64,000 bases of DNA from Cardiobacteriaceae bacterium. GTDB taxonomy: Bacteria; Pseudomonadota; Gammaproteobacteria; Cardiobacteriales; Cardiobacteriaceae. A program made the position numbers and the translations under genes. This document shows, one piece after another, positions 2,041 through 18,998 of this stretch. The notes beneath the pieces were generated by a model, which was not told the origin of the DNA, ran no database searches, and saw only the letters and a list, made by a program, of their open reading frames with translations. The stretch covers positions 124,001 through 188,000 of the forward strand of contig JAUMXB010000001.1 of the NCBI GenBank assembly GCA_030529365.1, in the 5' to 3' direction. Every line of letters starts with the position of its first letter. Within the stretch, counting starts at the first letter, position 1.

Positions 2041-2050
2041 GGATGCTCCT

Positions 2051-2124
2051 TTTTTCTCACTCTAAGCACTTGATATGGTGATTTTTTACCGCAACAAGCG
2101 CTTCATGATGGTAAAAAATGATGG
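2051..2124. repeat. Interspersed palindromic element copy 2
   Basis: Core AAGCGCTT at 2096-2103 flanked by ATTTTTTACC and GGTAAAAAAT, with a degenerate second core AAGCACTT at 2064-2071 (32 bp away). It abuts the paaJ ribosome-binding site, so it would lie in the 5' leader of any paaJ transcript. Confidence 0.8.
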
Positions 2125-2230
2125 TTTTTTGCAGGTTGGTGGTGAATCGCTTGCGCAGAACCCCGACGGGCAAGTGTATGCGCCATGTTGGGGTTCACGA
2201 TATTCACCCGAACCCGCAGCAGTCAGCTAT

Positions 2231-2285
2231 TCGGTGGGCTTAAGCCCATCCTACGGTTTGCCCGGTGGGTTTACACCCACCCTAC
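2231..2285. repeat. Paired short hairpins of the GGTGGGCTTAAGCCC class
   Basis: Two small stem-loops in tandem: GTGGGCTTAAGCCCAT, then GGTGGGTTTACACCCACC, each followed by CCTAC. Similar TAGG-bounded hairpins recur at 18958-18980 and 63696-63716, so this is a dispersed class. Confidence 0.65.
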
Positions 2286-2291
2286 TTTTTC

Positions 2292-2362
2292 AAAAAAACG
2301 CTTTTCATGGTGATTTTTTACCGTGATAAGCGCTTCGTGATGGTAAAAAATAATGATTTTTT
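2292..2362. repeat. Interspersed palindromic element copy 3
   Basis: Core AAGCGCTT at 2328-2335 with TTTTTTACC on the left and GGTAAAAAAT on the right. A degenerate core AAACGCTT lies at 2296-2303, 32 bp upstream. Its right part closely resembles copy 2. Confidence 0.8.
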
Positions 2363-2363
2363 T

Positions 2364-2449
2364 GTAGGGTGTGTGGACGAAGTCCACGCACGCGGTTGGT
2401 CATGAAGGCTTATCCACGTGCGTAACGGCTTCGCCGTCACACACCCTAC
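2364..2449. repeat. Branched hairpin repeat
   Basis: Outer arms GTAGGGTGTG (2364-2373) and CACACCCTAC (2440-2449) are exact complements and enclose the triloop hairpins GTGGAC-gaa-GTCCAC (2373-2387) and ACGGC-ttc-GCCGT (2425-2437). The whole could fold as a branched structure. Confidence 0.65.
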
Positions 2450-2457
2450 GGTTTTGT

Positions 2458-3516
2458 TTACACGTCGAAATCGACGATAGCGGTGTCGCTTTTCACATGC
2501 GCCTGGCAGGTGAGGATATAGCCGGCGGCGACTTCGTCGTCTTCCAGACCGTAGTTGATGGTCATGTCGGCTTCGCCTTCGATGAGCTTGGCCTTGCAGG
2601 TGGCGCAGACGCCGCCCTTGCAGGCAAACGGTACGTTGGCGCCTGCTTCCAGCGCGGCATCAAGGATGTTCTGCCCTTCGGCAACGGCGATTTTCTGTTC
2701 GCGCCCTTGCGAGATGACGGTGATCTTGCGGTCGTTTTCGCTGTGCACCACAGGTTTCCTGCTTGCCTGGCTGGTCGGCGTGCCGAAGAGTTCGAGATGC
2801 ACCTGTTTGGTGGTCAAACCGCGCGCCAGGAGCGCTTCGCGGAATTGCTCGATCAAGGGCAAGGGGCCGCACAGGTAGGCGTGGTCGAGGCTTTTCGCAT
2901 CAACGAAGGCATCGAGCAACTGGCCGACGCGCTCGCCTTCGGGGCGCGCGGAAAGGAGCGGCAGGTCGCGCGGTTCGCGGGTGAGCACGTGCACAAGCGA
3001 GAAGCGGCTCATATAGACGTTTTTCAGCGCTTCCAGCTCGGCAAAGAACATGATGTCCTTTTGCGAGGCGTTGACGTAGATCAGCGTCATCTGCGCGTCG
3101 GTGTTTTTCAGGAGGTAGTCGATCATCGCGTAGATGGGCGTGATGCCGCTGCCGGCGGCGAGGAAGCAGTAGTTCTTGCCGGCCTGGAGCGCTTCGCCCT
3201 GCGGCAGATGGAAATCGCCCTGCGGTTTCATGACGCCGATGGTGTCGCCCGCCTTGACTTCACCGCAGGCAAAGCCGGAAAAGATGCCGCCGTCCACGCG
3301 CTTGATGCCGACTTGCACGAAATCGTCGCCATAGGCGCAGACGGAGTAGAAGCGCTCGACGTCTTCATCGCCGATGCGGGTTTTCAGCTTGACGTGCTGG
3401 CCGGGAATGACGGCGAAATCGCCGCGCAGATGTTCGGGGATGGCCAGGGTGAGCGTGACCGCCTGCGCGGTTTGCGCGGCTTTGTCCTTGATTGACAGGG
3501 TATGGAATTCACTCAT
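2458..3516 (-). CDS. paaE: Phenylacetyl-CoA epoxidase reductase subunit
   Basis: 352 residues (E. coli PaaE 356). The N-terminal ferredoxin-reductase module has FAD-binding RFYSVCAYG and NAD(P)-binding GSGITPIYAMI segments; the C-terminal plant-type 2Fe-2S ferredoxin has ligands in FACKGGVCATCKAK and a distal cysteine in ILTCQAH. It passes electrons from NADPH to the di-iron PaaA. Here it is preceded by paaD with 125 bp between them and followed by the repeat-filled gap before paaJ. The start has GGAGACAATC upstream. Confidence 0.95.
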   Translation of the reverse strand: MSEFHTLSIKDKAAQTAQAVTLTLAIPEHLRGDFAVIPGQHVKLKTRIGDEDVERFYSVCAYGDDFVQVGIKRVDGGIFSGFACGEVKAGDTIGVMKPQGDFHLPQGEALQAGKNYCFLAAGSGITPIYAMIDYLLKNTDAQMTLIYVNASQKDIMFFAELEALKNVYMSRFSLVHVLTREPRDLPLLSARPEGERVGQLLDAFVDAKSLDHAYLCGPLPLIEQFREALLARGLTTKQVHLELFGTPTSQASRKPVVHSENDRKITVISQGREQKIAVAEGQNILDAALEAGANVPFACKGGVCATCKAKLIEGEADMTINYGLEDDEVAAGYILTCQAHVKSDTAIVDFDV

Positions 3517-3611
3517 GATTGTCTCCTGTATGCTTCAGGGTCATTAATAATTTCGGGGATGGTGTTGCAAGGTTTTTGTCGCTGCGCGACGTGTTTCAAC
3601 CCTCTCCCCAA

Positions 3612-3632
3612 CCCTCCCCCACAGGGGGAGGG
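3612..3632. repeat. C/G-run hairpin between paaD and paaE
   Basis: CCCTCCCCC-aca-GGGGGAGGG makes a 9-bp perfect stem with a 3-nt loop in the 125-bp paaD-paaE gap. There is no T-run after it on the minus strand, so it is more likely a dispersed repeat or an mRNA stability hairpin than a terminator. Confidence 0.6.
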
Positions 3633-3641
3633 AATCGTTGT

Positions 3642-4112
3642 TCAATGGCATTTGAAATATTCAAACGGCTCGCCGCAATCGCCACAGCGGTACAGCGCCT
3701 TGCAGGCGGTGGAGCCGAAGCGGCTGACCAGTTGCGTGTTGGCGCTGCCGCAGAGCGGGCAGTCTTTCGGGCTGTCGCCCGCAGGCGGCGCGATGCCGTA
3801 GGCCCGCAGTCTGGCCTTGGCATCGTCGCTGATCCAGTCGGTCGTCCACGCGGGCGAGAGCTGCTCTTTCAGCACCGGCCTGGGGTAGCCTGCTTCAACC
3901 AGCGCGTCGCTCACCATTTTGCGAATGGCGAAAGTGGCCGGGCAGCCCATGTAGGTGGGCGTGAGCGTGACCACGATGTCGTCGCCATCGATGGCGACAT
4001 CGCGGATGATGCCGAGATCATCAAGCGTCAAAACCGGCACTTCCGGGTCGGGCACGGTGGCGAGCACGGCGCGGATGGCAGCAAGATCCAGCTTGGGGGC
4101 GGGTGCGTTCAT
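3642..4112 (-). CDS. paaD: Phenylacetate degradation protein PaaD (DUF59 plus zinc ribbon)
   Basis: 156 residues (E. coli 165). The first two thirds are a MIP18/DUF59 domain with DPEVPVLTLDDLGIIRDV and TYMGCPAT; the C-terminus has paired cysteines CPLCGS and CGDCGEPF, typical of PaaD. PaaD is needed for epoxidase activity in vivo and is thought to help mature its iron cofactors. The start at 4112 overlaps the paaC stop as TGATG, arguing for translational coupling; upstream in-frame sequence is paaC read out of frame. Confidence 0.93.
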   Translation of the reverse strand: MNAPAPKLDLAAIRAVLATVPDPEVPVLTLDDLGIIRDVAIDGDDIVVTLTPTYMGCPATFAIRKMVSDALVEAGYPRPVLKEQLSPAWTTDWISDDAKARLRAYGIAPPAGDSPKDCPLCGSANTQLVSRFGSTACKALYRCGDCGEPFEYFKCH

Positions 4113-4837
4113 CACCAGCTCGCACCGGGATAGGCGCGGCGCAGGGACTGCATTTCCGCGAGCAGCAGCCCGAGTTTTTCGGTGTGCCGCCCTTCGGTGC
4201 CGCCGCGCTGGAAGTAAACGTTGTCGGGGATGGCGAGTTCGCACTCCTTGGCAAGCGCTTCGATGCCGCTCCGCCACTGCGCGCGAATGGCGGCCATATC
4301 GGGGAGACCTTCCTCAAGCGCTTCAAAGAGTTCTTCGGTATAAGGCCACAGGAATTCCCAGGCGTTTTCCAGTCGCTTGCGGCTTTCGGCGGTGCCGTGG
4401 GCAAGGCGGATGAGCCATTCGCGTTCATGGCGCGCGTGATAGTCCACTTCTTTGAGGGATTTGGCGGCGATGGCGCGAAAGTCTTCATCGGCGGATTCTG
4501 CCAGCGCCTGATAGAGCGCGCTGAAATAAAGGCTGAAGAGATAGCCGCGCAGCGTGGTTTGCGCGAAGTCGCCGTTTTCCAGTTCGGCCAGGAGATAGTT
4601 GGTGTATTCGCGTTCGTCGCGGAAATAGGCGAGATCGTCCGCCGTGCGGCCCTTGCCTTCGCGACGCGCCGCCAGATCCAGCCATGCCGTGCCCTGGCCG
4701 AGATAGTCGAGGCCGATGTTGGCAAGCGCGATTTCTTCTTCGAGCGTGGGCGCCCAGCCAACGAGCTGGCAATAACGCTGGGCAAGGACGAGCGTGGTAT
4801 CGCCGAGGCGCTGGGCGTAGAGAGCGTATTTGTCCAT
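4112..4837 (-). CDS. paaC: Phenylacetyl-CoA 1,2-epoxidase structural subunit
   Basis: 241 residues (E. coli 248), all-helical ferritin-like protein. It forms the heterodimer with PaaA but lacks a full set of di-iron ligands and plays a structural role. The conserved LAQRYCQLVGWAPTLEEEIALANIGLDYLGQ and KEVDYHARHEREWLIRL segments are present. It is 9 bp behind paaB and overlaps paaD by one base. Confidence 0.95.
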   Translation of the reverse strand: MDKYALYAQRLGDTTLVLAQRYCQLVGWAPTLEEEIALANIGLDYLGQGTAWLDLAARREGKGRTADDLAYFRDEREYTNYLLAELENGDFAQTTLRGYLFSLYFSALYQALAESADEDFRAIAAKSLKEVDYHARHEREWLIRLAHGTAESRKRLENAWEFLWPYTEELFEALEEGLPDMAAIRAQWRSGIEALAKECELAIPDNVYFQRGGTEGRHTEKLGLLLAEMQSLRRAYPGASW

Positions 4838-4846
4838 GTCGCCTCC

Positions 4847-5128
4847 TTACATGTGGCCGACTTCGTCGGGGATGTCGTAGAAAGTGGGATGGCGGTAAAT
4901 CTTGTCGCCAGCCGGGTCGATAAAGGCGGACTGGGCATCGGGTTCCATGGCGGTGATGTCTTCGGATTTCACCACCCAGATGGAGACGCCTTCGTTGCGG
5001 CGGGTGTAGAGATCGCGGGCGTTTTGCAGCGCCATGGTGGCATCGGTGGCGTGCAAGGATCCGACATGCTGGTGCGAGAGGCCTGCTCTGGCGCGGATGA
5101 AGACTTCATACAGTTGCGAGGTGCTCAT
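4847..5128 (-). CDS. paaB: Phenylacetyl-CoA 1,2-epoxidase subunit PaaB
   Basis: 93 residues (E. coli 95). Conserved YEVFIRARAGLSHQHVGSLHA start and YRHPTFYDIPDEVGHM end. It holds PaaAC units together in the epoxidase complex. AAGGAGAACATC precedes the ATG. Unusually it is separated from paaA by 277 bp holding a palindromic element and a second hairpin, whereas these genes are normally almost contiguous. Confidence 0.95.
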   Translation of the reverse strand: MSTSQLYEVFIRARAGLSHQHVGSLHATDATMALQNARDLYTRRNEGVSIWVVKSEDITAMEPDAQSAFIDPAGDKIYRHPTFYDIPDEVGHM

Positions 5129-5245
5129 GATGTTCTCCTTGTGTCTGGGTGAACGGTTGGTGATGATTTTTGCCGTTGCGACGGCGATTTTTCGATGTGG
5201 TTGCCCTGCGGGCAGACGGCGGGTTGCCCGTCTTGCGTTGCTTTG

Positions 5246-5329
5246 GTATTTTTTCTCACCATGAAGCGCTTTTTGTGGGAAAATTTCTCACGGTAAGCGC
5301 TTTATCATGGTAAAAAATCACTATTTTTA
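5246..5329. repeat. Interspersed palindromic element copy 4, inside the paa operon
   Basis: Cores at 5264-5271 and 5295-5302, 31 bp apart, inner spacer GGGAAAATTTCTC, right boundary CATGGTAAAAAATCACTATTTTT split as CATGGTAAAAAAT then CACTATTTTT. It lies between paaA and paaB, so it must be transcribed if the epoxidase genes share an mRNA. Confidence 0.88.
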
Positions 5330-5364
5330 ATGATTTTTTGTAATTTATCGATGGGCGCAGGTTT

Positions 5365-5397
5365 CAGGTTGGGGTTCACGCCGTTCCCCCCAACCTG
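5365..5397. repeat. Hairpin just after paaA
   Basis: CAGGTTGGGG (5365-5374) is exactly complementary to CCCCAACCTG (5388-5397). It is 8 bp past the paaA stop with no adjacent T-run on the minus strand, so a processing or stability hairpin is as likely as an attenuator. Confidence 0.6.
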
Positions 5398-5405
5398 CGT
5401 GATGG

Positions 5406-6338
5406 CTACGCTGCCTGTTGCGCTTGCTGTTTTTCCGCGTAGGCGAGCGCCGCTTCCACAACCCATGCGCCTTCTTCCTGGGAACGGCGGCGCTGGTTCA
5501 TGCGATCGCGGTTGCACGGGCCATGGCCGTTGATGACCTGGTTGAATTCCGTCCAGTCGATATCGCCGTGGTCGTAGTGGCCGCGTTCCTCGTTCCACTT
5601 GAGGTCGGGATCGGGAATGGTAATGCCGAGATATTCGGCCTGCGGCACGGTCATGTCGATGAATTTCTGTCTGAGTTCATCGTTGCCGAAGCGCTTGATT
5701 TTCCAAGCGAGCGACTGTTCGCTGTGCGCGGAATCGCTGTCGTGCGGGCCGAACATCATCAGGGCTGGCCACCACCAGCGGTTCATGGCATCCTGCACCA
5801 TTTGCTTCTGCTCCGGCGTGCCGTGCAGTGCCATTTCCATCAGGAGTTCGTAACCCTGGCGCTGGTGGAAGGATTCTTCCTTGCAGATGCGCACCATGGC
5901 GCGGGCATAGGGGCCGTAGCTGGTGCGCTGCAATGCGACCTGGTTGACGATGGCCGCGCCATCAACGAGCCAGCCGATAGTGCCGATGTCCGCCCAGGAG
6001 AGGGTCGGGTAATTGAAGATGGAGGAATATTTCATTTTGCCGTCAAGCATGGCATTGATGGTGGCCTGGCGGTCGGCACCGAGCGTTTCCGCGGCGCAGT
6101 AGAGATAAAGGCCGTGGCCGGCTTCGTCCTGGATTTTCGCCATGAGAATGGCCTTGCGGCGCAGCGAGGGCGCGCGCGTCAGCCAGTTGCCTTCCGGCAG
6201 CATGCCGACGATTTCCGAATGCGCGTGTTGCGCGATCTGGCGGATCAGGGTCTTGCGGTAGGCTTCCGGCATCCAGTCGCGCGGCTCGATTTTGGTTTCC
6301 GCGGCGATTTTTTCTTCAAAACGCTTTTCTTCGCTCAT
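5406..6338 (-). CDS. paaA: Phenylacetyl-CoA 1,2-epoxidase catalytic subunit
   Basis: 310 residues (E. coli 309). Ferritin-like di-iron protein; metal ligands are expected in [14 protein letters not shown] (ExxH) and in [15 protein letters not shown] (ExxH). It epoxidises the aromatic ring of phenylacetyl-CoA. The start at 6338 (GGAGACGCATC upstream) overlaps the stop of the preceding thioesterase as ATGA; the frame runs further upstream but without family similarity. Confidence 0.96.
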
Positions 6339-6823
6339 GATGCGTCTCCTGTTTGTGATGGGTTTTGCGGGCTGACATACACATAGCACACCATGGAGGT
6401 GGCGCAAAGCTTGCCCGCTTCGTCGTGAATATCCACACGGCCGCGTATCGCGGTGCGTCCCAGTTTGAGTACCTGCGCGGTGATGGTGATGTCGCCATCA
6501 TGGATGGGGCGCAGGAACTCGGTGCTCAAATTGAGGGTGGCCATTTCGCGATGCTCGCCGAGCATGGCAAGCGCGGGAAAGACCAGTAGCGTATCGGCCA
6601 GGGCCATGACCACCTGCCCGGAAAGGTGCGAAACCGTGACCGGCGGCGGAAAGCGGCGAAAGAGACCGGGATTGGCGGCAAGGCGAAAGGTCGCGGTGCC
6701 GGGTTCAAGGGTCAGCACTTCCACATGCAGGTGATCGAGTATCCAGCCGGGCAGCACACTTTCGATCAGCGGCTCGAACAGCCCGGGGTATTGGTTGGCA
6801 AGATGCGGGGGAATCACAAACAT
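6335..6823 (-). CDS. Hotdog-fold acyl-CoA thioesterase (PaaI-like), inserted in the paa operon
   Basis: 162 residues with a single hotdog domain (about 30-150). The catalytic-loop region reads [18 protein letters not shown] in place of the usual HGG...LAD. It overlaps paaA by ATGA and follows dctM by 10 bp, so it is translated within the uptake/epoxidase operon. Family knowledge suggests a rescue role, hydrolysing dead-end CoA esters so that CoA is not trapped. A second, canonical PaaI lies at 13782-14219; the two are divergent, so their substrates probably differ. Confidence 0.75.
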
Positions 6824-6833
6824 GCTGTTTCTC

Positions 6834-8159
6834 CTAGTTCATCATCGCAACGGGAACGACCAGCGACAGCCACGGCACGAACACAATCAGCAGAATGCGC
6901 ACGATGTCGGCAATCCAGAACGGCGTCACGCCCTTGAAAATGGTGGCAGTCGCCACATCCGGCAATTGCCCGCGCAGGACGAAGACGTTCAGCCCCACTG
7001 GCGGCGTGAGCAGCGAAATCTCGGTCGCGACCACCACGATGATGCCGAACCAGATAAGGTTCATCTCGGCCGTGCCGCCATCAAAGAAGGTGAGTCCGGC
7101 GACAACAGGCGCAAAGATCGGCACCGTGAGCGTTACCATCGACATGCTCTCGAAGACCATGCCGAGCAGCAAATAGATGCCCACAATGGCAAGCACCACC
7201 ATGTACGGCGAAAAATCGTTCTGCGTCACGAAAGCGAGCAGTTCGTTCGGCAGCCCCGTGCGCACGATGAAGCGCGAGAAAATCGCCGCACCAATCAGGA
7301 TGACGAAGAGCGACGTGGACGTCAGTACCGACTGTTTGGCGGCATCGACAAATCCTGCCCAGGTAAAGCGGCGGAACAGGATGGAAATGATCACCGTACC
7401 CATGGCGCCGACTGCCGCCGCTTCGTCAGCCGCATAAATCTGGAAGTAAAGACCGCCAAAGATCAGAAGAAAGAGCAGCAGGATGGGCATGACCTTGAGG
7501 CTTGCCAGCACGATTTCCCTGAACGGCGTTTTCTCCCCGGCAGGCCCGGCCTTGGGATCGATGATGACAGTCACAATTACGGCGAGCAAATAGAGGAAGA
7601 CGCCCAACAGCCCCGGCAAGATGCCGGCGAGGAACATTTTCGTCACCGATTGCTCGGTCATGAAAGCATAGATGACGAGCAGGACCGATGGCGGAATGAG
7701 AATGCCGAGCGTACCGCCAGCAGCAATGGAAGCGGTCGAGAGCGAATCCTTGTAGCCAAACTGGCGCATAGACGGCATGGCCACTTTCGCCATGGTGGCA
7801 ACCGTTGCCAGAGAAGATCCGCAAATGGCGCTGAAACCGCCCGCGGACAATACGGTAGAAAGCGCAAGCCCGCCACGGAAACGCCCGATCAGCGTATAAC
7901 CGGCGCGGTAGAGATCATTCGCCATGCCGCTCTTGGCAATGAGCATGCCCATGAATACGAAAAGCGGAATGATGGAAAGTTCGGATTTTTGCACCGTTTC
8001 CCAGATGCTGTGCGCAGCCGGCCCCAATGATGACTTGAAATTCCAGCCATTCAGGGCGGCAAAACCGGTGGCGCCAACAATACCCATGGCAAAGCCGATG
8101 GGGATGCGGATGAAGACCAGCAAAATAACAATGGCAAATCCCAGCAAGGCGGCAATCAT
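6834..8159 (-). CDS. dctM: TRAP transporter large permease, paa-linked
   Basis: 441 residues of strongly hydrophobic sequence with the 12-13 segment DctM/SiaM pattern, including GGTLGILIPPSVLLVIYAFMTEQS split as GGTLGILIPPSV then LLVIYAFMTEQS, and LLTPPVGLNVFVL near the end. It couples inward sodium movement to uptake of the substrate delivered by the periplasmic DctP. The start overlaps the dctQ stop as ATGA. Placement between paaG and paaA implies that it imports a substrate of the pathway, plausibly phenylacetate or a related aromatic acid (inference). Confidence 0.92.
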   Translation of the reverse strand: MIAALLGFAIVILLVFIRIPIGFAMGIVGATGFAALNGWNFKSSLGPAAHSIWETVQKSELSIIPLFVFMGMLIAKSGMANDLYRAGYTLIGRFRGGLALSTVLSAGGFSAICGSSLATVATMAKVAMPSMRQFGYKDSLSTASIAAGGTLGILIPPSVLLVIYAFMTEQSVTKMFLAGILPGLLGVFLYLLAVIVTVIIDPKAGPAGEKTPFREIVLASLKVMPILLLFLLIFGGLYFQIYAADEAAAVGAMGTVIISILFRRFTWAGFVDAAKQSVLTSTSLFVILIGAAIFSRFIVRTGLPNELLAFVTQNDFSPYMVVLAIVGIYLLLGMVFESMSMVTLTVPIFAPVVAGLTFFDGGTAEMNLIWFGIIVVVATEISLLTPPVGLNVFVLRGQLPDVATATIFKGVTPFWIADIVRILLIVFVPWLSLVVPVAMMN

Positions 8160-8716
8160 AAATTATCCTTGTGGCTGATTTCGGGAACGATATCGTCGCG
8201 TTTCGCAACCATGGCATAGAGATACCACAAGGCCCACAGCAGCATGACGATACCCACCAGCAACATCATGGCGGCAAAGCCGTAAGCAAAGAGCCCCTGC
8301 TTCACGCCCAGCTCCTCATACATCACTTCGCGCCCGGGACGGGAAATGCGTCCGGCCTTGTCATACATCCAGTAGCTCATGCCGATGCAGGCAACTGCTA
8401 CAGCGAGATCGATCAGGAAAAATTGCAGCTTGCGCCGGAACGGCGTTTTGAAAAGACCATCAAGCAAATCCACGTCGAGATGCTCGCGATTGATGGTGAT
8501 CACCGGAAAGCTGCATACGAATACGACGCCCATCAGAATGTTGAACAACTCTTCACGCTGCACAATGGAGGCAGAAAACATATAGCGGGCAAACACATCG
8601 CCGAAGCCGATCAGCATCAAGAGCACCAGCGCCGTCCCGCCAACCGCGAGCAACAAAGTGGCCGTCGCGTGCCAGGCACGCGACAGTCCGCCGGAGTGTG
8701 TTGCCCCCGTCATCAT
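8156..8716 (-). CDS. dctQ: TRAP transporter small permease, paa-linked
   Basis: 186 residues with four predicted membrane helices (about 14-38, 55-75, 96-115, 140-165) and the conserved region with INREHLDVDLL of DctQ proteins. It overlaps dctP by ATGATGA and dctM by ATGA, so the three components are translationally coupled. Either of two adjacent ATGs (8716, 8713) could start it. Confidence 0.9.
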   Translation of the reverse strand: MMTGATHSGGLSRAWHATATLLLAVGGTALVLLMLIGFGDVFARYMFSASIVQREELFNILMGVVFVCSFPVITINREHLDVDLLDGLFKTPFRRKLQFFLIDLAVAVACIGMSYWMYDKAGRISRPGREVMYEELGVKQGLFAYGFAAMMLLVGIVMLLWALWYLYAMVAKRDDIVPEISHKDNL

Positions 8717-9714
8717 TTGCCCTTCATTTCAGAAGCAAAAGTTTCCACGACCAGCTCGTAGGCGGCCTGACCATCCACGCCTTTATCGTTGATTTCCTTG
8801 ATGACTTTTTCGCGGATTTCCTTGGAAACTTCCGCCATTTTTGCGAGATCGTCAGCGGGCAGCTCGGCAATCGTGCCCTTTTCCTTCTGAAGAACCAGAC
8901 CCTTGTCGTAATCAATATCCCATACCGCACCGGCATCGCGGGAAAGCGCTTCGCCGAAATATTCGCGGATGGCTTTCTGGTCGGCTTCGCTCACCTTGTC
9001 GAGCGCATTTTCATTCATGAAAAGCGCAAACGAGCCGCGATAAAAGCCGCCGGGCAGGGTGTAGGCATGCGGCGCCGCTTCATAGAGGCGGAAAGAGGGA
9101 ATCACGTCTGCCGGCAACATCGTGCCATCGGCCATGCCGCCCGTGATCATTTCATAACTTTTCGAGGCAGGCGCGAGAATGGGAGAAGTCTTGAGCGCTG
9201 CCGCGACATCGTTGGCCACGCCGCCGCCCGCGCGCATCTTGCGCCCTTCCACGGCTTTCAGGCCATCAATTTCGTTCTTCATGAACAGAAACGCCGGGCC
9301 ATGCACCATAAAGCCGATCAGCTCCACACCTTCGTATTCATTGGCATCTTTCAGGTATTTCTCGTGCGCGCGCCAGTGGGCAACGGCAGCAGCACTGGAA
9401 TTGCCCTCATAGCCCGGCAGCTCGATCAGCTTGGTGGTAATGAAGCGTCCGGGGAAATAGCCGTTGTACGTCCAGGAAATGTCCGCACCGCCATATTCCA
9501 CAAGCTCGAGCAGGCCATTGGGTGCGGCGAGATCATATTCAACCTTGGCCGTCACCCGCCCTTCGGTACGCTTTTCCAGCTCTTCCACCAGCTTCGGCAG
9601 CAGTACGCTGTTCACTGAGTGCGACGGCGGCAGCCAGGTGGCAATTTTCAGCTCCACATCAGCAGCCTGCGCCATACCGGCAGCCATGGCGAGCAACAAT
9701 ACGCTTTTCTTCAT
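8713..9714 (-). CDS. dctP: TRAP transporter substrate-binding protein, paa-linked
   Basis: 333 residues with a signal peptide (MKKSVLLLAMAAGMAQA, cleavage before ADVEL). DctP-fold; the Arg in KMRAGGG lines up with the arginine that binds the carboxylate of TRAP ligands. The ATG at 9714 is preferred over an in-frame GTG three bases upstream because AGGAG is 8 nt before it. It is the first gene after a strong promoter that overlaps a PaaR-type operator (9771-9800). The ligand is unknown; an aromatic carboxylate is the natural guess from context. Confidence 0.9.
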   Translation of the reverse strand: MKKSVLLLAMAAGMAQAADVELKIATWLPPSHSVNSVLLPKLVEELEKRTEGRVTAKVEYDLAAPNGLLELVEYGGADISWTYNGYFPGRFITTKLIELPGYEGNSSAAAVAHWRAHEKYLKDANEYEGVELIGFMVHGPAFLFMKNEIDGLKAVEGRKMRAGGGVANDVAAALKTSPILAPASKSYEMITGGMADGTMLPADVIPSFRLYEAAPHAYTLPGGFYRGSFALFMNENALDKVSEADQKAIREYFGEALSRDAGAVWDIDYDKGLVLQKEKGTIAELPADDLAKMAEVSKEIREKVIKEINDKGVDGQAAYELVVETFASEMKGK

Positions 9715-9770
9715 CACATTATCTCCTGATTATGTTTTTGGGAAACGGCCTGTCGGCCATCCACGCTCAA

Positions 9771-9800
9771 AATATAATGGAAACCAACCGAACGGTCAAT
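9771..9800 (-). promoter_or_regulatory. Sigma-70 promoter with overlapping PaaR-type operator, upstream of dctP
   Basis: On the minus strand TTGACC (9794-9799) and TATATT (9771-9776) are separated by exactly 17 bp. The -35 lies inside ATTGACCGTTCGGTTGGTT (9782-9800), an imperfect palindrome centred on CCGTTCGG. The same sequence with two changes occurs at 10610-10628. The operator overlaps the paaG stop codon. Confidence 0.8.
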
Positions 9801-10584
9801 CAATTTCCTGCTGAAAAAATACCGCCTCTCGCTTTTCCAGGAAAGCGGACACGCCTTCGCGATATTCCGCACTGAAACCTGCCTCGCGCTGGCACGCCAC
9901 TTCCAGCAACAACTGCTCTTCCAGCGTGTTGCCTGTCGCGGCATTGAGCGCCCGGATGGAAAGCGCATTGCCAGTGGCGGCGCCATAGGCAAGACGGGTA
10001 GCCAGCGCTTGCGCGCGCTCCTGCAATACGGCGGCTTCGTGAATTTCCCAGACCAGCCCGTAATCGCGCGCCTGTTCCGCACTCCACACGCCCTGCGTCA
10101 GCACAAATGCCTTGGCGCGCGCCAATCCCAGCAGCTGCACCAGACGCCAGGTCAGCCCCGCATCGGGGATAAGGCCAATTTTTCCGAAGGCAATGGCAAA
10201 CTTGGCAGTATCCGCCGCCAGCACGATATCGCAAGCGAGTGCTACGCCGATGCCGGCGCCAGCCGCCGCACCATTGACGACGGCGAGTTTGGGTTTTTCC
10301 AGCGCCTCCATTTGGCGGATCAGGGGGTTGTAGAAGTTGGTAAGCGTTTCGCCGAGATCGCGCGCTTCTGCACCCGGCGCGCGCTCGCTCAAATCCTGAC
10401 CGGCGCAGAATCCCTTGCCCGCACCGGTCAGCAAAATGGCGCGCACTTTCGGGTTATCCCTGGCATCTTCCAGCACACGGCGCAGCTCCAAATGCATTTC
10501 CTCATTGAAAGCATTGAGTTGAGCCGGCCTGTTGAGCGTAATCTGTCCGACGCCGTTTTTGATGTCGTAAAGAATAGTGGACAT
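9796..10584 (-). CDS. paaG: 2-(1,2-epoxy-1,2-dihydrophenyl)acetyl-CoA isomerase
   Basis: 262-residue crotonase. The oxyanion-hole region FCAGQDLSER (from residue 59) and the catalytic aspartate Asp141 in IGLIPDAG are the PaaG signature, replacing the glutamate pair of hydratases. It converts the ring epoxide to oxepin-CoA. AGGAGGCGAC precedes the ATG. It reads first in the minus-strand run and shares its promoter region with divergent paaN. Confidence 0.93.
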   Translation of the reverse strand: MSTILYDIKNGVGQITLNRPAQLNAFNEEMHLELRRVLEDARDNPKVRAILLTGAGKGFCAGQDLSERAPGAEARDLGETLTNFYNPLIRQMEALEKPKLAVVNGAAAGAGIGVALACDIVLAADTAKFAIAFGKIGLIPDAGLTWRLVQLLGLARAKAFVLTQGVWSAEQARDYGLVWEIHEAAVLQERAQALATRLAYGAATGNALSIRALNAATGNTLEEQLLLEVACQREAGFSAEYREGVSAFLEKREAVFFQQEID

Positions 10585-10609
10585 GTCGCCTCCTTTTTGT
10601 GATTCATTT

Positions 10610-10664
10610 ATTGACCGTCTGGTTGGTTTTAAATTAGTATAAGAACAACGCAGCTTATTATCAA
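10610..10664. promoter_or_regulatory. Overlapping divergent paaG/paaN promoters with a shared PaaR-type operator
   Basis: Minus strand (paaG): TTGATA (10659-10664), 17 bp, TATACT (10636-10641). Plus strand (paaN): TTGACC (10611-10616), 18 bp, TAGTAT (10635-10640). The two -10 elements occupy the same bases on opposite strands, so they cannot both be open at once. The operator ATTGACCGTCTGGTTGGTT (10610-10628) covers the paaN -35 and the expected paaG start site, so one bound repressor would silence both. Confidence 0.8.
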
Positions 10665-10720
10665 GCCAGCCTGATTTCCCCGTCCACGGATTGTTCTACA
10701 AAATGACTGAAGGAGCCACC

Positions 10721-12406
10721 ATGACCCTTTTCTCCGATGCCCACAAAACCCGCCTCGACAAGGCGCGCCAAGTCATCAAAAGCCGCGAGAACTGGGCGGC
10801 ATTCGCCGAAGTGCCGAGCGAAAAAATCTACGGCGAAGGCAGCAAGGCGCGTGGCGAAAAAGCCTTCCATGCCCTGCTCGACAAACCTTTCGCCTTTGCC
10901 GTGGCACAGGATGGCGCCGAATACGTCGCGGGCGAACGCATCTCTCCCTATGGCCTTGCCCTGAATCTTTCCTATCCCAAACTCGCTGCCGCCACCTTGC
11001 TTGATCGCGCGGAAAAAGCGCAGAAAAGCTGGCGCAAGACGGATGTGGAAACGCGCCTTGCCATTTGCTCCATCATGCTTGATCGCCTGGCCGAGCAGTC
11101 TTTCCTGATGGCCAATGCGGTGATGCACACCACCGGGCAGCCTTTCGTGATGTCTTTCCAGGCGGGCGCGCCGCATGCGCTTGATCGCGCGCTCGAAGCG
11201 CTTGCCTATGCCGCGGATGCCATGCAGGCGAGCGCTTCTGCCGCCACCTGGCAGAAAGTCACCGGCAAGAACAAGGAAGGCCAGAATGTTACCGTCACCC
11301 TCGACAAAACTTTCCGCACGCGCGGCAAGGGCATTGGCCTCGTCGTCGGCTGCGCCACTTTCCCCACCTGGAACAGCTATCCCGGCCTTTTTGCAAATCT
11401 CGCGACCGGCAACAGCGTCATCGTGAAACCGGCCGAATCCGCCATTCTGCCGCTTGCCATCAGCGTGGACATCATGCGTCAGGTACTTGCCGAAAACGGC
11501 TTTGATCCTGATACCGTGCAGCTCGCCGTCACCGGTGGCGACCGCTCGCAAACGCAAGCGCTTGCCAAAGACGCCCGCGTCAAAATGATCGATTACACCG
11601 GCGGCCCCGGCTTCGGACGCTGGTTGCAGGAAAACTGCCCGGATACCCAGCTGTATCTGGAACAGGCCGGCATCAACAATATCCTCATCGAATCCACCGA
11701 CAATCTGCGCGGCATGACCGCCAATATCGCCTTTTCGCTCTCGCTGTTCGGCGGGCAGATGTGCACCGCGCCGCAGAATATCTATATTCCGCGCACCGGC
11801 ATCCAGACCGAAAACGGCCCGCTGTCTTTCGATGACGCCGCCGCCGCCATTGCCAAGGGCGTGGAAAAACTTCTGGGCGATTCTGACCGCGCCTTTGCCC
11901 TGTTGGGCGCGCTCGGCAGCGAAGCGGTCGCGAAACGCGTCGCCACCATCGCGCAAAGCGGCGCGAATACGGTGCTGGCCACGGAAAAGGCCAATTACGC
12001 TCCCTACCCCGATGCGCGCACGGCCAAGCCGCTCATCATCAAGACGGATGCCAAGGACGAGCTGGCTTGCGAAGAGCAGTTTGGCCCGATCGCTTTCGTG
12101 ATTGCCTGTGAGGACGCCGACGATGCGCTCGCCAAGGTCTGCGCCAATATCGAACAGCACGGCGCGATGACCACCAGTCTCTACAGCGTGAACGACGCTT
12201 TCCGCGAGCAGGCCATTGATGCCATCGCCGATGCCGGTTCGCCACTCTCCGTGAATCTCACCGGCGGCGTCTATGTCAACCAGTCGGCGGCCTATACCGA
12301 TTTCCACGGTTCAGGACTGAATCCTGCGGCGAACACCAGCCTGACCGATTTGGGCTTTGTCAGCCAGCGTTTCGGCTGGGTCACCGTGCGCGAACAAAAG
12401 GACTGA
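10721..12406 (+). CDS. paaN: PaaN-type aldehyde dehydrogenase of phenylacetate ring cleavage
   Basis: 561 residues, matching the stand-alone PaaN family and not the about 680-residue PaaZ fusion. Aldehyde dehydrogenase fold with catalytic Cys348 in GGQMCTAP and general base Glu314 in LYLEQAG. It should oxidise 3-oxo-5,6-dehydrosuberyl-CoA semialdehyde. The MaoC-like hydratase domain that opens oxepin-CoA in PaaZ is absent, and no MaoC protein is encoded in this window. AAGGAGCCACC precedes the ATG; a TTG 30 bases upstream is less likely. Confidence 0.9.
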   Translation: MTLFSDAHKTRLDKARQVIKSRENWAAFAEVPSEKIYGEGSKARGEKAFHALLDKPFAFAVAQDGAEYVAGERISPYGLALNLSYPKLAAATLLDRAEKAQKSWRKTDVETRLAICSIMLDRLAEQSFLMANAVMHTTGQPFVMSFQAGAPHALDRALEALAYAADAMQASASAATWQKVTGKNKEGQNVTVTLDKTFRTRGKGIGLVVGCATFPTWNSYPGLFANLATGNSVIVKPAESAILPLAISVDIMRQVLAENGFDPDTVQLAVTGGDRSQTQALAKDARVKMIDYTGGPGFGRWLQENCPDTQLYLEQAGINNILIESTDNLRGMTANIAFSLSLFGGQMCTAPQNIYIPRTGIQTENGPLSFDDAAAAIAKGVEKLLGDSDRAFALLGALGSEAVAKRVATIAQSGANTVLATEKANYAPYPDARTAKPLIIKTDAKDELACEEQFGPIAFVIACEDADDALAKVCANIEQHGAMTTSLYSVNDAFREQAIDAIADAGSPLSVNLTGGVYVNQSAAYTDFHGSGLNPAANTSLTDLGFVSQRFGWVTVREQKD

Positions 12407-12408
12407 CC

Positions 12409-13785
12409 ATGAAAGCGACCATTGCCGTCATCGGCGCGGGCACCATGGGCGAGGGCATTGCCCAGCTTGCCTTGCAGGCCGATCATCCCGTCATCCTCGT
12501 TGACCCTTCGCAAGCGCAGCGCGAACGCGCCAAAGCCAGCCTCGACAAGCGCTTTGCCGGCTTCGTCGCCAAGGGCAAATGGCAGGCCGACGAACACGAA
12601 AAGCGCCTGGCGGCGCTGACCCTTGCCGACAGCGCCCGGGCTGCCGCGCCCGCGCAGGTGGTCATCGAAGCCATCATCGAAAATATCGACATCAAAAAAG
12701 CGCTTTTTGCCGAGCTGGAAGCCGTGGTTGCGGATGACGCCATCCTCGCCTCGAATACATCTTCTCTTTCCATTACGGCGATGGCCGCCGAGCTTCGCCA
12801 TCCCGAGCGCTTCCTCGGGCTGCATTTCTTCAATCCGCCGGGGCTGATGCCGCTTGTCGAAGTCATTCGTGCCCTGCAAAGCGCGGACAGCGTCGTCAGC
12901 AAAGCCATTGCGCTGATGCGCGACTGGGGCAAGCAGCCGGTGATGTGCAAGGATACGCCGGGCTTTATCGTCAATCGCGTGGCGCGCCCTTTTTATGTGG
13001 AGAGTTTTCGTCTGCTTGAGGAACAGGCGCTGGCTCCTGCCGCGCTTGATGCCGCCCTGCGCAGCGCCGGTTTCAGAATGGGCCCTTGCGAATTGACCGA
13101 TCTCATCGGCCAGGACGTGAATTTCGCGGTCAGCACTTCCTTGTGGACGGCGCTTGGCTATCCGCCGCATTTGCAGCCTTCGTGGGTGCAGGGTGATCTG
13201 GTTGCCGCACGTTATCTCGGGCGCAAAAGCGGCCGCGGCTTTTATCCGGGCGGCGAAGGGCAACTGCCTGCGCAAAACCGCGCAGCGACCATCCCCTATC
13301 AGCATCGCGACGGGCTTTGCGGCGTGCTCGAAAATGGCGTTACCGTGAAATACGGCGACGGCCGCCGCGCCATTGAGCACGAGCACGAAAGCGGCACGCC
13401 CACTATTCTCATCGACTATCACGCCCCCGATGCCAAGCATGTGGCGCTTGCCATGGGCGCGAAAGCCAGGGCCCTGATGGGCGAAGCGCTTCCCGAGGCC
13501 GACGTGCAATGGCTCGTCATGCCCGATCGGCCGGGACTGGTGGCGCTGCGCGTGATTGCGCAAATCATCCACGAAGCGGCAACCTGCGCGCTTGCCGGTA
13601 TTGCCAGCCCCGAGGATATCGACATCGCGCTCAAGGGCGGCGTCAATTATCCGCACGGCGCCTTTGCCTTCCTGGAGCGCATGGGTCTTGATGTCGTCCT
13701 GCAAACCATCCGCAGCCTCAATGCCTACTATGGCGCGCGCTATGCCCCGTCGCCGTGGCTGCTCGACAAAGAGGAAAACGCATGA
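12409..13785 (+). CDS. paaH: 3-hydroxyadipyl-CoA dehydrogenase
   Basis: 458 residues. NAD-binding GAGTMGEGIAQLAL at the N-terminus, the hydroxyacyl-CoA dehydrogenase motif HFFNPPGLMPLVEV, and a second C-terminal helical domain from about residue 365 (DRPGLVALRVIAQIIHEA). It oxidises 3-hydroxyadipyl-CoA to 3-oxoadipyl-CoA with NAD, feeding PaaJ. It starts 2 bp after paaN and ends in an ATGA overlap with paaI. Somewhat shorter than E. coli PaaH (475). Confidence 0.93.
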   Translation: MKATIAVIGAGTMGEGIAQLALQADHPVILVDPSQAQRERAKASLDKRFAGFVAKGKWQADEHEKRLAALTLADSARAAAPAQVVIEAIIENIDIKKALFAELEAVVADDAILASNTSSLSITAMAAELRHPERFLGLHFFNPPGLMPLVEVIRALQSADSVVSKAIALMRDWGKQPVMCKDTPGFIVNRVARPFYVESFRLLEEQALAPAALDAALRSAGFRMGPCELTDLIGQDVNFAVSTSLWTALGYPPHLQPSWVQGDLVAARYLGRKSGRGFYPGGEGQLPAQNRAATIPYQHRDGLCGVLENGVTVKYGDGRRAIEHEHESGTPTILIDYHAPDAKHVALAMGAKARALMGEALPEADVQWLVMPDRPGLVALRVIAQIIHEAATCALAGIASPEDIDIALKGGVNYPHGAFAFLERMGLDVVLQTIRSLNAYYGARYAPSPWLLDKEENA

Positions 13786-14219
13786 ATCCGTCCCTTGCCG
13801 CGCGCGTCGCCGCCAAGATGATCGCCGATGACCGCTTCTCCGCCCATCTTGGCATCGAGATCGTTGCCGCCGAAGCGGATTATTCGGTGTGCAAAATGAC
13901 CATCGACGAACGCCATCTGAACGGCCACGGCACTTGCCATGGCGGCGCGATCTTTGCGCTCGCCGATACCGTCTTCGCCCATATCTGCAATGCCGGCAAC
14001 CGCATCACCGTCGGCCATATCTGCACCATCGCCTATTGGGCGCCGGCCTATCCCGGCGACACCCTCTATGCCGTGGGCACGATCAACGGCGAATATGGCC
14101 GCTCCGGCTCCTATCGCATCATTGTGCGCCGCAACGCGGAAGACGGCGAAACCATTGCCGAATTCCAGGGATTCAGCAGAAGCCTGCCCGGACAAACCCA
14201 TTTCCCCACCTGTGACTGA
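13782..14219 (+). CDS. paaI: Phenylacetate-pathway hotdog thioesterase
   Basis: 145 residues (E. coli 140). Hotdog fold with NGHGTCHGGAIFALAD; Asp62 corresponds to the catalytic aspartate (Asp61) of E. coli PaaI. It hydrolyses ring-hydroxylated phenylacetyl-CoA species to free CoA when the pathway stalls. The start at 13782 overlaps the paaH stop as ATGA. Confidence 0.92.
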   Translation: MNPSLAARVAAKMIADDRFSAHLGIEIVAAEADYSVCKMTIDERHLNGHGTCHGGAIFALADTVFAHICNAGNRITVGHICTIAYWAPAYPGDTLYAVGTINGEYGRSGSYRIIVRRNAEDGETIAEFQGFSRSLPGQTHFPTCD

Positions 14220-14240
14220 TTGAAAAAAGAGGAGAACACC

Positions 14241-15530
14241 ATGAGCAGCAAGGATTTTTTCAACCGCATCGAACAAGCCTCGCGCGACGAAATCGCCAAT
14301 CTGCAACTGAAGCGCATGCAGAAGTCGCTGATTCACGCCTATGTCAACGTCCCCTTCTGGAAGAAGCGCTTCACCGAGCACGGCGTGCATCCCGACGACC
14401 TGAAATCGCTGGAAGACCTCGCCAAATTCCCCTTCATGGTCAAGGATGACTTCAAGGACAACTATCCCTTCGGGCTGCTCGCTGTCGAGCAGAAAGACGT
14501 GGTGCGCATCCACGCTTCCTCGGGCACGACCGGCAAGCCGAAAATCGTCGCCTACACGCAAAACGATATCGACATGTGGGCGGATGCCGTCGCGCGCTCC
14601 ATGTATGCTGCCGGCGTGCGCCCCGAGCATACCGTGCAGATCGCCTACGGCTACGGCATGTTCACCGGCGGCCTTGGCGCGCATTATGGCGCGGAGCGCC
14701 TCGGTTGCGGCGTCATCCCCATTTCTGGTGGCATGACGGCGCGGCAGATCCAGATGATCGAGGAATTGAAGCCCAACGCCATTATGGTAACGCCGTCCTA
14801 CATGCTGAACCTGGCCGAGCAGATGAAAAAAATCGGCCACGATACCCTGAACAACAGCCTGAAAGTCGGTATTTTCGGCGCGGAACCGTGGACCAACGAA
14901 ATGCGCAAGCACATCGAAGAACTCTTTGACATGGATGCCGTCGATATTTACGGCCTTTCCGAAGTCATCGGCCCCGGCGTTGCCCAGGAATGCGTGGAAA
15001 CGAAAGATGGCCTCACTGTCTGGGAAGACTATTTCTACCCGGAAATCATCAACCCGGAAACCGGCGAAGTGCTGCCGGATGGCGAAGCCGGCGAACTCGT
15101 CTTCACCAGCCTCCTGAAAGAAGCGCTGCCCGTCATTCGCTATCGCACCGGCGACATCACCCGCCTTCTCCCCGGCACGGCACGCAGCATGCGCCGCATC
15201 GAGAAAATCACCGCGCGCAGCGACGACATGATCATCCTGCGCGGCGTCAACATCTATCCGTCGCAGCTCGAAGAGCAAATCCTGAAAGTGCCGGGGCTGA
15301 CATCCAACTACATTCTCGAGCGCTACCGCATCGGCGTGATGGACCAGCTGCGCATCCGCGTCGAGCCGCAGCAGAACGGCGTGCACGAAGAGCGTCTCGC
15401 CAAGCAGCTCGCCCACAACATCAAGACCGAAATCGGCTCCAGCGTGGACGTGCAGATCGAACAAGTCGGCACCCTGCCGAGATCCGAAGGCAAGGCCAAA
15501 CGCGTCATTGATCTTCGCGATCCCATGTAA
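14241..15530 (+). CDS. paaK: Phenylacetate-CoA ligase
   Basis: 429 residues (E. coli 437). Adenylate-forming enzyme with the P-loop ASSGTTGKPKIVAYT, the YGLSEVIGPGVAQEC motif, the YRTGD hinge region and the C-terminal RSDDMIILRGVNIYPSQLE. It activates phenylacetate with ATP and CoA, the entry step of the pathway. GAGGAGAACACC precedes the ATG; a strong terminator follows the gene. Confidence 0.96.
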   Translation: MSSKDFFNRIEQASRDEIANLQLKRMQKSLIHAYVNVPFWKKRFTEHGVHPDDLKSLEDLAKFPFMVKDDFKDNYPFGLLAVEQKDVVRIHASSGTTGKPKIVAYTQNDIDMWADAVARSMYAAGVRPEHTVQIAYGYGMFTGGLGAHYGAERLGCGVIPISGGMTARQIQMIEELKPNAIMVTPSYMLNLAEQMKKIGHDTLNNSLKVGIFGAEPWTNEMRKHIEELFDMDAVDIYGLSEVIGPGVAQECVETKDGLTVWEDYFYPEIINPETGEVLPDGEAGELVFTSLLKEALPVIRYRTGDITRLLPGTARSMRRIEKITARSDDMIILRGVNIYPSQLEEQILKVPGLTSNYILERYRIGVMDQLRIRVEPQQNGVHEERLAKQLAHNIKTEIGSSVDVQIEQVGTLPRSEGKAKRVIDLRDPM

Positions 15531-15537
15531 GCGCTCT

Positions 15538-15574
15538 CCTGCCGGGCGCGACATTCCGTGCCCGGCAGGCATTT
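15538..15574 (+). terminator. Terminator after paaK
   Basis: A 10-bp perfect stem CCTGCCGGGC / GCCCGGCAGG (15538-15547 with 15560-15569) followed by CATTTT. It separates the paaN-H-I-K unit from paaR. Confidence 0.8.
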
Positions 15575-15646
15575 TGGCACGCAACCCTATATAATTCCGG
15601 GCGGCATCTTGCATGCCTCCCCTTTTGTACACTCCGCAGGAAAACC

Positions 15647-16246
15647 ATGGCCAGAGCAAAAGCCGTTGATCACGATGAGAAACGCAGCAATATCCTGAAC
15701 AAGGCATCAGAACTTTTCACTGCCGAAGGCTTCAGTCGTGCCTCCATGACGCAGCTTGCGCAAGCCTGTGAAATATCCAAGGCCAACCTTTATCACTACT
15801 ATTCTGATAAAGAAAGTATTCTTTTTCATATCCTTGACGAACACATGGACGAAATCCTTGCCACCCTGCGGCAAAGTTTCGAAAAAAGCCCGCCAGACGA
15901 GCGTCTCTATCGTCTCATCCTCTCTTTGCTCACGCTCTATCAAAATGCCGACCACAAGCACCGCATCCTTCTGAACGACCTGCAAATCCTTCCTGAGGAA
16001 AAGCAGCAGACCATTCGCGGCAAGGAGCGCGAAATCGTGCAGTTTTTCAAAAATGCCATCCTCCTGAAATATCCGCAGCACGGCAGCAACCCGAAACTTC
16101 TCGCGGCCACTGCCATGACCATCCTCGGCGCCATCAACTGGTCCTTTACCTGGTTCAAGCCGGGCAAAGGCTTTTCCGTCGAGCAATACGCCCGTTTTCT
16201 CACCCGCACCTTTGAAGAAGGAATCGGCCATGACATCGCTGATTGA
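15647..16246 (+). CDS. paaR: TetR-family regulator of phenylacetate degradation
   Basis: 199 residues: N-terminal TetR helix-turn-helix (about 11-57, FSRASMTQLAQACEISKANLYHYYSDK split as FSRASMTQLAQACEIS then KANLYHYYSDK) and a ligand-binding helical domain. In other bacteria PaaR of this family represses paa genes and is released by phenylacetyl-CoA. The two operator copies at 9782-9800 and 10610-10628 fit such a repressor; none is visible at its own start. A TATAAT (15590-15595) lies upstream with a poor -35. The gene overlaps paaF by 17 bases. Confidence 0.88.
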   Translation: MARAKAVDHDEKRSNILNKASELFTAEGFSRASMTQLAQACEISKANLYHYYSDKESILFHILDEHMDEILATLRQSFEKSPPDERLYRLILSLLTLYQNADHKHRILLNDLQILPEEKQQTIRGKEREIVQFFKNAILLKYPQHGSNPKLLAATAMTILGAINWSFTWFKPGKGFSVEQYARFLTRTFEEGIGHDIAD

Positions 16247-16994
16247 ACATGAACTTCTCGCCCCGCATCTCCATCGCCTGTGGCTCAATCGCCCCGAGCG
16301 CAAAAACGCCCTGAACACCGCCCTGCTCTGCGAACTTGCCGAACGCGCGGAAGCACTTGCTGCCGAAGGCGCGCGTGCCATCCTCATCCAGGGCAAAGAC
16401 GGCAACTTCGCCGCCGGTGCCGATATCGACGAAATCGCCACCCTCTCGTCGCAGGAAGCGCTTGTCGATGCCCGCGTCACCGCCTGGAAACGCCTGCGCG
16501 AATGCCCGCTGCCGCTCATTGCCGTGGTCGAAGGCTATTGCCTTGGCGGCGGCATGGAACTTTTGCTCAGCTGCGATTTCGCCATTGCCCATCCCGACGC
16601 CAAATTCGGTCTGCCCGAAGTGAAACTCGGCCTCATGCCCGGTGCGGGCGGCACGCAAATTCTCCCTCGCGTGGTCGGCACGCGCCGCGCCGCACGCATG
16701 GTACTGACCGGCGACATGTTCGATGCCGCAACCATGCGCGACTGGGGCATCGTCACCGACCTTGCCGATGATCCGGCGGCGTTGGCTGAAAAAATTGCCG
16801 GCAAAATCGCCGCCAACGCTCCCTTTGCCGTGCGCCAGGCCAAATCCTCGCTCAGGCAGGCGCAGGAAAGCGGCCTCGAAGCCGGCATGAAATACGAACG
16901 CCAGGCCTTCTCGCTGCTCGCTTCCACGGCCGACCGCACGGAAGGCATCGCCGCTTTCCGCGAAAAACGCGCCCCACAATTCCAAGGAAAATAA
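16230..16994 (+). CDS. paaF: 2,3-dehydroadipyl-CoA hydratase
   Basis: 254-residue crotonase with both hydratase glutamates, Glu110 in GGGMELLLS and Glu130 in GLPEVKLG. The C-terminal block LRQAQESGLEAGMKYERQAF with LLASTADRTEGIAAF closely follows E. coli PaaF. The start inside the end of paaR is supported by GAAGGAATCGGCC. It hydrates 2,3-didehydroadipyl-CoA to 3-hydroxyadipyl-CoA. Confidence 0.88.
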   Translation: MTSLIEHELLAPHLHRLWLNRPERKNALNTALLCELAERAEALAAEGARAILIQGKDGNFAAGADIDEIATLSSQEALVDARVTAWKRLRECPLPLIAVVEGYCLGGGMELLLSCDFAIAHPDAKFGLPEVKLGLMPGAGGTQILPRVVGTRRAARMVLTGDMFDAATMRDWGIVTDLADDPAALAEKIAGKIAANAPFAVRQAKSSLRQAQESGLEAGMKYERQAFSLLASTADRTEGIAAFREKRAPQFQGK

Positions 16995-16996
16995 TC

Positions 16997-17782
16997 ATGG
17001 ACATGGATATCGTTGAACGGCACATCCTCGTCACCCCGCACGAGCACGGCGTTTACCAGCTCACCCTGAACCGCCCCAAGGTTTACAACGCGCTTTCCGA
17101 CGAACTCATCCGCGAACTCGGTGACCACATCCGCCATCTCGAAAGCAAAGACGCGCGCGTCTTCGTGCTCACCGGCGGCAACAAGGTTTTCGCCGCAGGC
17201 GGCGACATCGCGGAAATGCAACACAAAACCACCGAAGAAGTCACGCGCGAGCAATACGTCACCGCCGTCTGGCACGTGCTGGAAAGCCGCTCCCTGCCGA
17301 TGATTGCTGCCGTCAACGGGCTTGCCCTCGGCGGCGGCTGCGAACTTGCCATGCTCTGCGACATCATCGTCGCCGGCAAAAGCGCGAGCTTTTCCCTGCC
17401 GGAAACCAGCCTCGGCATCATTCCCGGCGCGGGCGGCACCCAGCGCCTGATTCGCGCCGTCGGCAAAAGCCGCGCCATGGACATGATCCTCTCCGGCAGC
17501 AACATGGGCGCGCTGGAAGCGCAGAAAAGCGGTCTTGTCGCCCGCGTCGTCGATGACCACAATGTTCTCGCCGAAGCCCTGCATGTCGCCACCCGCATCG
17601 CCAAGCGCTCCAAACCCGTCATTGCCGCCGCGCGCCGCGCCATCCTCGCCGCCGAGCACGGCCTGTCCCGTGGCCTTCTCGCCGAGCAGCGCGAGTTTTA
17701 CGCCACCTTCGACCTCGCCGACCAGAAAGAAGGCATGACTGCCTTCCTCGAAAAACGCCCGCCCAAATGGAAAGACTGCTGA
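16997..17782 (+). CDS. Enoyl-CoA hydratase/isomerase, third crotonase of the paa cluster
   Basis: 261 residues with a full crotonase fold, Glu116 (GGGCELAML) and Glu136 (SLPETSLG), i.e. a competent hydratase active site. It lies 2 bp after paaF in the same transcript. PaaF and PaaG are already present, so its step is not obvious: a second dehydroadipyl-CoA hydratase, a general FadB-type hydratase, or a stand-in for the missing oxepin-CoA ring-opening hydratase. MDIVERH six bases on is an alternative start. Confidence 0.8.
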   Translation: MDMDIVERHILVTPHEHGVYQLTLNRPKVYNALSDELIRELGDHIRHLESKDARVFVLTGGNKVFAAGGDIAEMQHKTTEEVTREQYVTAVWHVLESRSLPMIAAVNGLALGGGCELAMLCDIIVAGKSASFSLPETSLGIIPGAGGTQRLIRAVGKSRAMDMILSGSNMGALEAQKSGLVARVVDDHNVLAEALHVATRIAKRSKPVIAAARRAILAAEHGLSRGLLAEQREFYATFDLADQKEGMTAFLEKRPPKWKDC

Positions 17783-18057
17783 AAATCCCAAATAATGGTG
17801 ATTTTTATCAATGAACTACTCCGCAGCAAGCTGTGGGGCATCTAAAATCGTGCTCTTTCGAGAACCGATTTCGACAAGCGCACTTCGACAGGCTCAGTGA
17901 GCTTGTCGAACTGGCCTGTCGAAGTGCTTGCAAGAAGTGATTTCGGTTTTGTATTGATTTCATTAAAGTCCGACACATTACATTCGGCGATGCTTTATCA
18001 GAAAAAGACACATGAGCAATCAAGAAACCATAAAAAACAATATGAAAAACAGGTACT
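17783..18057. other. Intergenic region with hairpin repeats
   Basis: Between converging crotonase and AT-rich membrane-protein genes. It holds the hairpin CCGCAGcaaGCTGTGG (17821-17836), the dispersed repeat at 17869-17932 and AT-rich sequence beyond. A partial trace of the palindromic element (ATGGTGATTTTTATCA, about 17796-17811) lacks the AAGCGCTT core. Confidence 0.6.
17869..17932. repeat. Dispersed inverted repeat (GACAGGCTCAGTGAGC type), copy 2
   Basis: GCACTTCGACAGG near 17879 is mirrored by CCTGTCGAAGTGC at 17915-17927, enclosing GCTCAGTGAGCTTGTCGAAC. This is a better-preserved copy of the repeat at 741-797 and forms a long nested hairpin. Confidence 0.75.
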
Positions 18058-18805: not shown

Positions 18806-18850
18806 ACAAATACACAACGGTGGGGTGAAGCCTACCATGCGGTATAGATG

Positions 18851-18930: not shown

Positions 18931-18998
18931 ACTGTTTTTATGAGATTGGTTTCTTTATAGCGGGTTGACGCCCGCCCTACGCAGAATGTTTTATGCCA

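Follow-up and report, generated by a model that had tools for sequence, protein, structure and literature searches.

The window, by which we mean the whole 64,000-nucleotide stretch of Cardiobacteriaceae DNA analysed here, carries a paa gene cluster at 850-17782 in which a minus-strand group including paaG diverges from a plus-strand group headed by paaN (Table 1). Within the paa operon, DctP, DctQ and DctM make up a complete TRAP set, and their genes follow a putative operator-promoter of their own, whose sequence overlaps the stop codon of paaG. The gene for the TetR-family repressor PaaR is also inside the cluster, and its product matches both TetR_N (PF00440) and TetR_C_24 (PF17932) above cut-off. 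Several families of repeats accompany these genes. Intergenic repeats of ~70-110 bp, 66-81% alike and in both orientations, lie at 18-104, 5233-5344, 18835-18946, 25767-25878 and 29209-29320; they are present in the contig of a sister species too and have the look of small palindromic interspersed elements of one family. A 67-bp sequence is directly repeated (2064-2130 and 2296-2362, 84% alike) between paaJ and paaE, and a 70-bp repeat (727-796 and 17854-17923, 86% alike) occurs once close to either end of the paa cluster, where the two copies may mark the limits of an acquired segment.

Table 1. Genes and predicted regulatory features of the paa cluster, with positions in the window.
Feature	Position	Strand	Basis or remark
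paaA, paaB region, paaC, paaD, paaE, paaJ	850..6386	-	Matches to relatives and position
Hotdog thioesterase, other than paaI	6335..6823	-	PF03061; between dctM and paaA
dctM, TRAP large permease	6834..8159	-	PF06808
dctQ, TRAP small permease	8156..8716	-	PF04290
dctP, TRAP solute-binding protein	8713..9714	-	PF03480; PDB 4p56, E 4e-55
Putative dctP promoter, TTGACC-17-TATATT	9771..9799	-	Consensus scan; -10/operator block kept in sister
PaaR operator (predicted) before dctPQM	9782..9800	-	Overlaps paaG stop codon and putative dctP -35
paaG	9796..10584	-	Best model TIGR02280 PaaG, 307 bits, below cut-off 345
PaaR operator (predicted) common to divergent paaG and paaN promoters	10610..10628	+	
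Putative paaN promoter, TTGACC-18-TAGTAT	10611..10640	+	Consensus scan
Putative paaG promoter, TTGATA-17-TATACT	10636..10664	-	Consensus scan; operator just downstream
paaN, first of the plus-strand group	10721..12406	+	TIGR02288 PaaN, above cut-off
paaH, paaI, paaK	12409..15530	+	
paaR, TetR-family repressor	15647..16246	+	TetR_N and TetR_C_24
paaF and second enoyl-CoA hydratase	16230..17782	+	

Two matched 19-mers lie in promoter regions of the paa genes, ATTGACCGTTCGGTTGGTT on the minus strand between paaG and dctP and ATTGACCGTCTGGTTGGTT on the plus strand between the divergent paaG and paaN. A preliminary description of this DNA had paired them as copies unlike at two central bases, and the mismatch is indeed limited to positions 10 and 11. 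Allowing up to three mismatches to the 19-mer, the window holds three matches against 0.51 expected, the third with three mismatches. The genome search for the 19-mer proposed in that description covered 2.3 Mb in 32 contigs and found zero mismatches at these two sites only, both in paa promoter regions, with all other matches at two or three. On these counts we discarded chance as their origin. A scatter of sites over the genome was discarded as well, since a search with the stricter form ACCRACCRNNCGGTCAAT, a near-palindromic core of the ACCRACC/GGTYGGT type to which both sites have zero mismatches, gives exactly two sites; with up to one mismatch allowed, there are exactly two in this genome and exactly two in the sister species.

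We also scored the 64 kb with a weight matrix built from other genomes, leaving the window out and including sites from a Variovorax plasmid (L096). The two sites rank first, at 22.6 and 18.5: the dctP site has the highest score of the whole window and is the closer to the PaaR consensus, whereas the paaG/paaN site has CCAGA in place of the usual CCGNN. In the gap before paaR the best score is -12, in keeping with the earlier remark that no operator copy lies near that gene. The consensus scan returned no promoter in this gap; a TATAAT is present there both in the window and in the sister, so paaR could be driven by a promoter of its own that is not subject to PaaR. The paaK-paaR gap further contains a strong G+C-rich hairpin at 15538-15570 (-32.5 kcal/mol, z -5) that is missing in the sister.

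Over the stretch, the consensus promoter scan gave five sites against 0.9 expected. Among them were both promoters in which the preliminary description had seen the sites overlap a -35 TTGACC, at spacings of 17 and 18 bp. The elements and spacings were thus recovered; TTGACC, however, belongs to the operator consensus, as the outer portion of the operator, so its role as a -35 is one that we infer. Orthologous sites mostly carry TTGACC without a -10 at a fitting distance (5 of 29 have one; 1.3 expected), and we dropped the notion that a TTGACC match alone proves a -35. At the two sites here, TTGACC likely acts as a -35; the putative dctP promoter matches the consensus at 10 of 12 positions. 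The -10 hexamers of paaN (10635-10640) and paaG (10636-10641) have five bases in common, in agreement with the earlier statement that they occupy the same bases, and it is from the overlap of these -10 elements only that we infer competition between the two promoters.

In the comparison with the sister species, each site falls within a promoter block that is sharply conserved. From ATTCATTTATTGACC to AAGAACAAC the two species are identical, as they are over GCTTATTATCAAGCC, which contains the paaG -35; the block CAAAATATAATGGAAACC.ACCGAACGGTCAATC before dctP has a single changed base beside a scrambled adjoining leader, and the dctP site reads ACCGACCGAACGGTC in the sister. Conserved blocks beside a diverged leader are the pattern expected of a conserved promoter and operator. 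In nine further genomes of the family, ACCRACCRNNCGGTCAAT has no zero-mismatch sites and four one-mismatch sites, against four for the reversed control; these nine genomes lack paaA too. The paa cluster is present in both genomes of the genus and paaA is absent from the ten other family genomes searched, which suggests that the cluster was gained from outside.

The position of the dctP site within a co-directional row of genes bears on how it would act. PaaR bound there could serve as a road-block to transcripts arriving from paaG, with no separate dctP promoter, and the overlap of -35 and operator by sequence does make the promoter reading ambiguous. The 10/12 promoter match argues against a pure road-block, as does a -10 kept in the sister although the downstream leader has diverged, and we regard this alternative as unlikely. 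The same DNA could instead act chiefly as a hairpin that ends the paaG message, as terminator or attenuator, its operator likeness being secondary. On the minus strand, GGAAATTGATTGACCGTTCGGTTGGTTTCC would form 13 pairs (-12.2 kcal/mol, z -3.1) followed by ATTATATTTT, and the single base that differs in the sister makes a pair stronger (-15.0). Against this, G-U pairs make up 5 of the 13, the run of T is interrupted, 1.4 terminator-like sites are expected by chance in the scan, the paaG stop codon lies inside the hairpin, so ribosomes would disturb its folding, and no site in the window scores higher on the operator matrix; such a chief role is therefore quite improbable. The hairpin as such (9779-9808) spans the paaG stop codon and is retained in the sister; it may have a part in ending the paaG message.

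Several lines of evidence point to the regulator, and on them the core ACCRACCRNNCGGT is the predicted operator of PaaR, a TetR repressor. In Burkholderia cenocepacia, the tested operators of PaaR read ACCGACCGGTCGGTT and ACCAACCGGTCGGTT (PMC9493321), and the paaA promoter of that species needs the repeat to be negatively controlled (PMC2770484). Read on the opposite strand, the window sites are ACCAACCGAACGGTC and ACCAACCAGACGGTC, each identical to the closer B. cenocepacia operator at 12 of 15 positions. The recognition helix of the window PaaR, SKANLYHYY, agrees with the Burkholderia type SKARLYHYY (SKAxLYHYY; L152, L163, L170).

The motif also follows PaaR across genomes. An even sample of 398 Pseudomonadota genomes contained PaaR relatives (counted at E up to 1e-20) in 39 and paaA in 68, and we examined the surroundings of 60 paaA and 20 paaR genes. 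Among paa genomes, 22 of the 35 that have PaaR carry ACCRACCRNNCGGT no more than 350 bp upstream of a paa gene; none of the 29 that lack PaaR does. Nearly all sites (27 of 29) fell within that distance of a paa gene, compared with none of the two sites found with a reversed-word control. When only the paaA stretches were compared, so that sampling was equal, a site was present in 15/31 PaaR-positive and 1/29 PaaR-negative genomes (p 8e-5), the lone PaaR-negative site lying ~5 kb from the nearest paa gene. By the strict pattern, 13 of the 35 sampled PaaR-positive genomes had no site in the stretches read. A site between divergent paaN and paaG is also present in G314, G071, G161, G393 and a Paracoccus plasmid, and G374, which is PaaR-positive, has the gene order paaABCDE-DUF1835-paaR of B. 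cenocepacia together with the exact B. cenocepacia operator word. Nearly the same word stands before a TetR gene at 9835-9862 of the Variovorax plasmid L096; no paa genes adjoin it, and we did not count it as a paa site. Related TetR proteins that serve other functions may thus recognize almost the same word.

That the sites belong to some other regulator, PaaR being tied to them by position only, is very improbable: another weak TetR match does exist in this genome, but the motif accompanies PaaR from genome to genome and is the same as the PaaR operator tested elsewhere. The preliminary description had proposed that the two sites define a PaaR regulon including the TRAP transporter, and this is upheld by the operator match, the cross-genome tie to PaaR, conservation in the sister, uniqueness in the genome and the recognition helix. 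The locus is thus a new instance of the already known PaaR regulon, with the TRAP transporter as its less usual member.

We hold it highly probable that both sites are PaaR operators and that release by phenylacetyl-CoA turns on the enzymes and the TRAP importer. Without inducer, PaaR would be bound at each site. At the paaG/paaN site it would cover the paaG start region and the upstream part of the paaN promoter, so that one site would shut both divergent groups; at the dctP site it would shut the dctPQM promoter, located within the paaG gene row, and might in addition impede transcription running through from paaG. Binding of the phenylacetyl-CoA formed by PaaK would release PaaR from the DNA, allowing the enzymes and the importer to be made. 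Release by phenylacetyl-CoA is known for the PaaR of Thermus and of Burkholderia (PMC9493321); repression and release are taken here from those other species, and binding of PaaR at the window sites is predicted. Given that one of the sites would place the TRAP transporter under PaaR, it is very likely that uptake and breakdown of phenylacetate are turned on together.

The cargo of the transporter can be approached from its relatives and its neighbours. Among solved structures, the closest to DctP is 4p56, a TRAP protein solved with mandelate. Mandelate is a hydroxy-phenylacetate. The predicted structure of DctP itself is poor (mean pLDDT 43), and a DctP search of the genome contigs matched the sister contig only. 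Within the 398-genome sample, the same TRAP type lies directly behind paaABCDE-paaZ and in the same direction in a gammaproteobacterium (G195), and beside paaZ, converging on it, in G104. These two neighbourhoods compare with 0.08 expected by chance, a rough count based on 16 copies in ten other genomes with both genes, taking 20 kb out of about 4 Mb in each. The arrangement in G195 speaks for phenylacetate or a closely related compound as the probable cargo of DctPQM. A literature search that covered few subscription papers returned no paper tying a TRAP transporter to phenylacetate. More tentatively, and leaning somewhat against it, we entertain a fuller picture in which a phenylacetate TRAP importer belongs to the PaaR regulon, its operator-promoter doubles as the end of paaG and as an RNA hairpin, and the same repressor can set uptake apart from breakdown.

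Among known systems, PaaR of B. cenocepacia (BCAL0210; PMC2770484, PMC9493321) is likewise a TetR repressor with a near-palindromic ACCRACCGGTCGGT operator in paa promoters and a regulon of few sites confined to paa genes. There, however, the repeat lies between the -35 and -10 of paaA, paaH and paaZ, whereas the window sites lie at the common paaG/paaN promoter region and before the TRAP transporter, and they have a less perfect right half. From Burkholderia to Cardiobacteriaceae the form of the PaaR operator is preserved, so a search with the same short pattern can locate PaaR regulons in many genomes. Plasmid p1 of Paracoccus sp. TOH (L095) shares the divergent paaN/paaG, the operator in the gap and paaK followed by tetR, but has branched-chain-amino-acid-type ABC transporter genes after paaN in place of a TRAP system. 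MbdR of Azoarcus sp. CIB (PMC4424350) is also a TetR repressor of an aromatic-CoA pathway that controls a second, internal operon promoter, but it recognizes the operator ATACN10GTAT, responds to 3-methylbenzoyl-CoA and serves an anaerobic pathway. TarPQM of Rhodopseudomonas palustris (PMC3610893) is an aromatic-acid TRAP system encoded, like DctPQM, in a breakdown cluster for its cargo; it binds coumarate and other cinnamates, and we liken it to DctPQM by description rather than by kinship of TarP and DctP. In the window, the shared repressor allows the cargo to be read, which makes DctPQM a candidate phenylacetate TRAP importer that can be put to the test.
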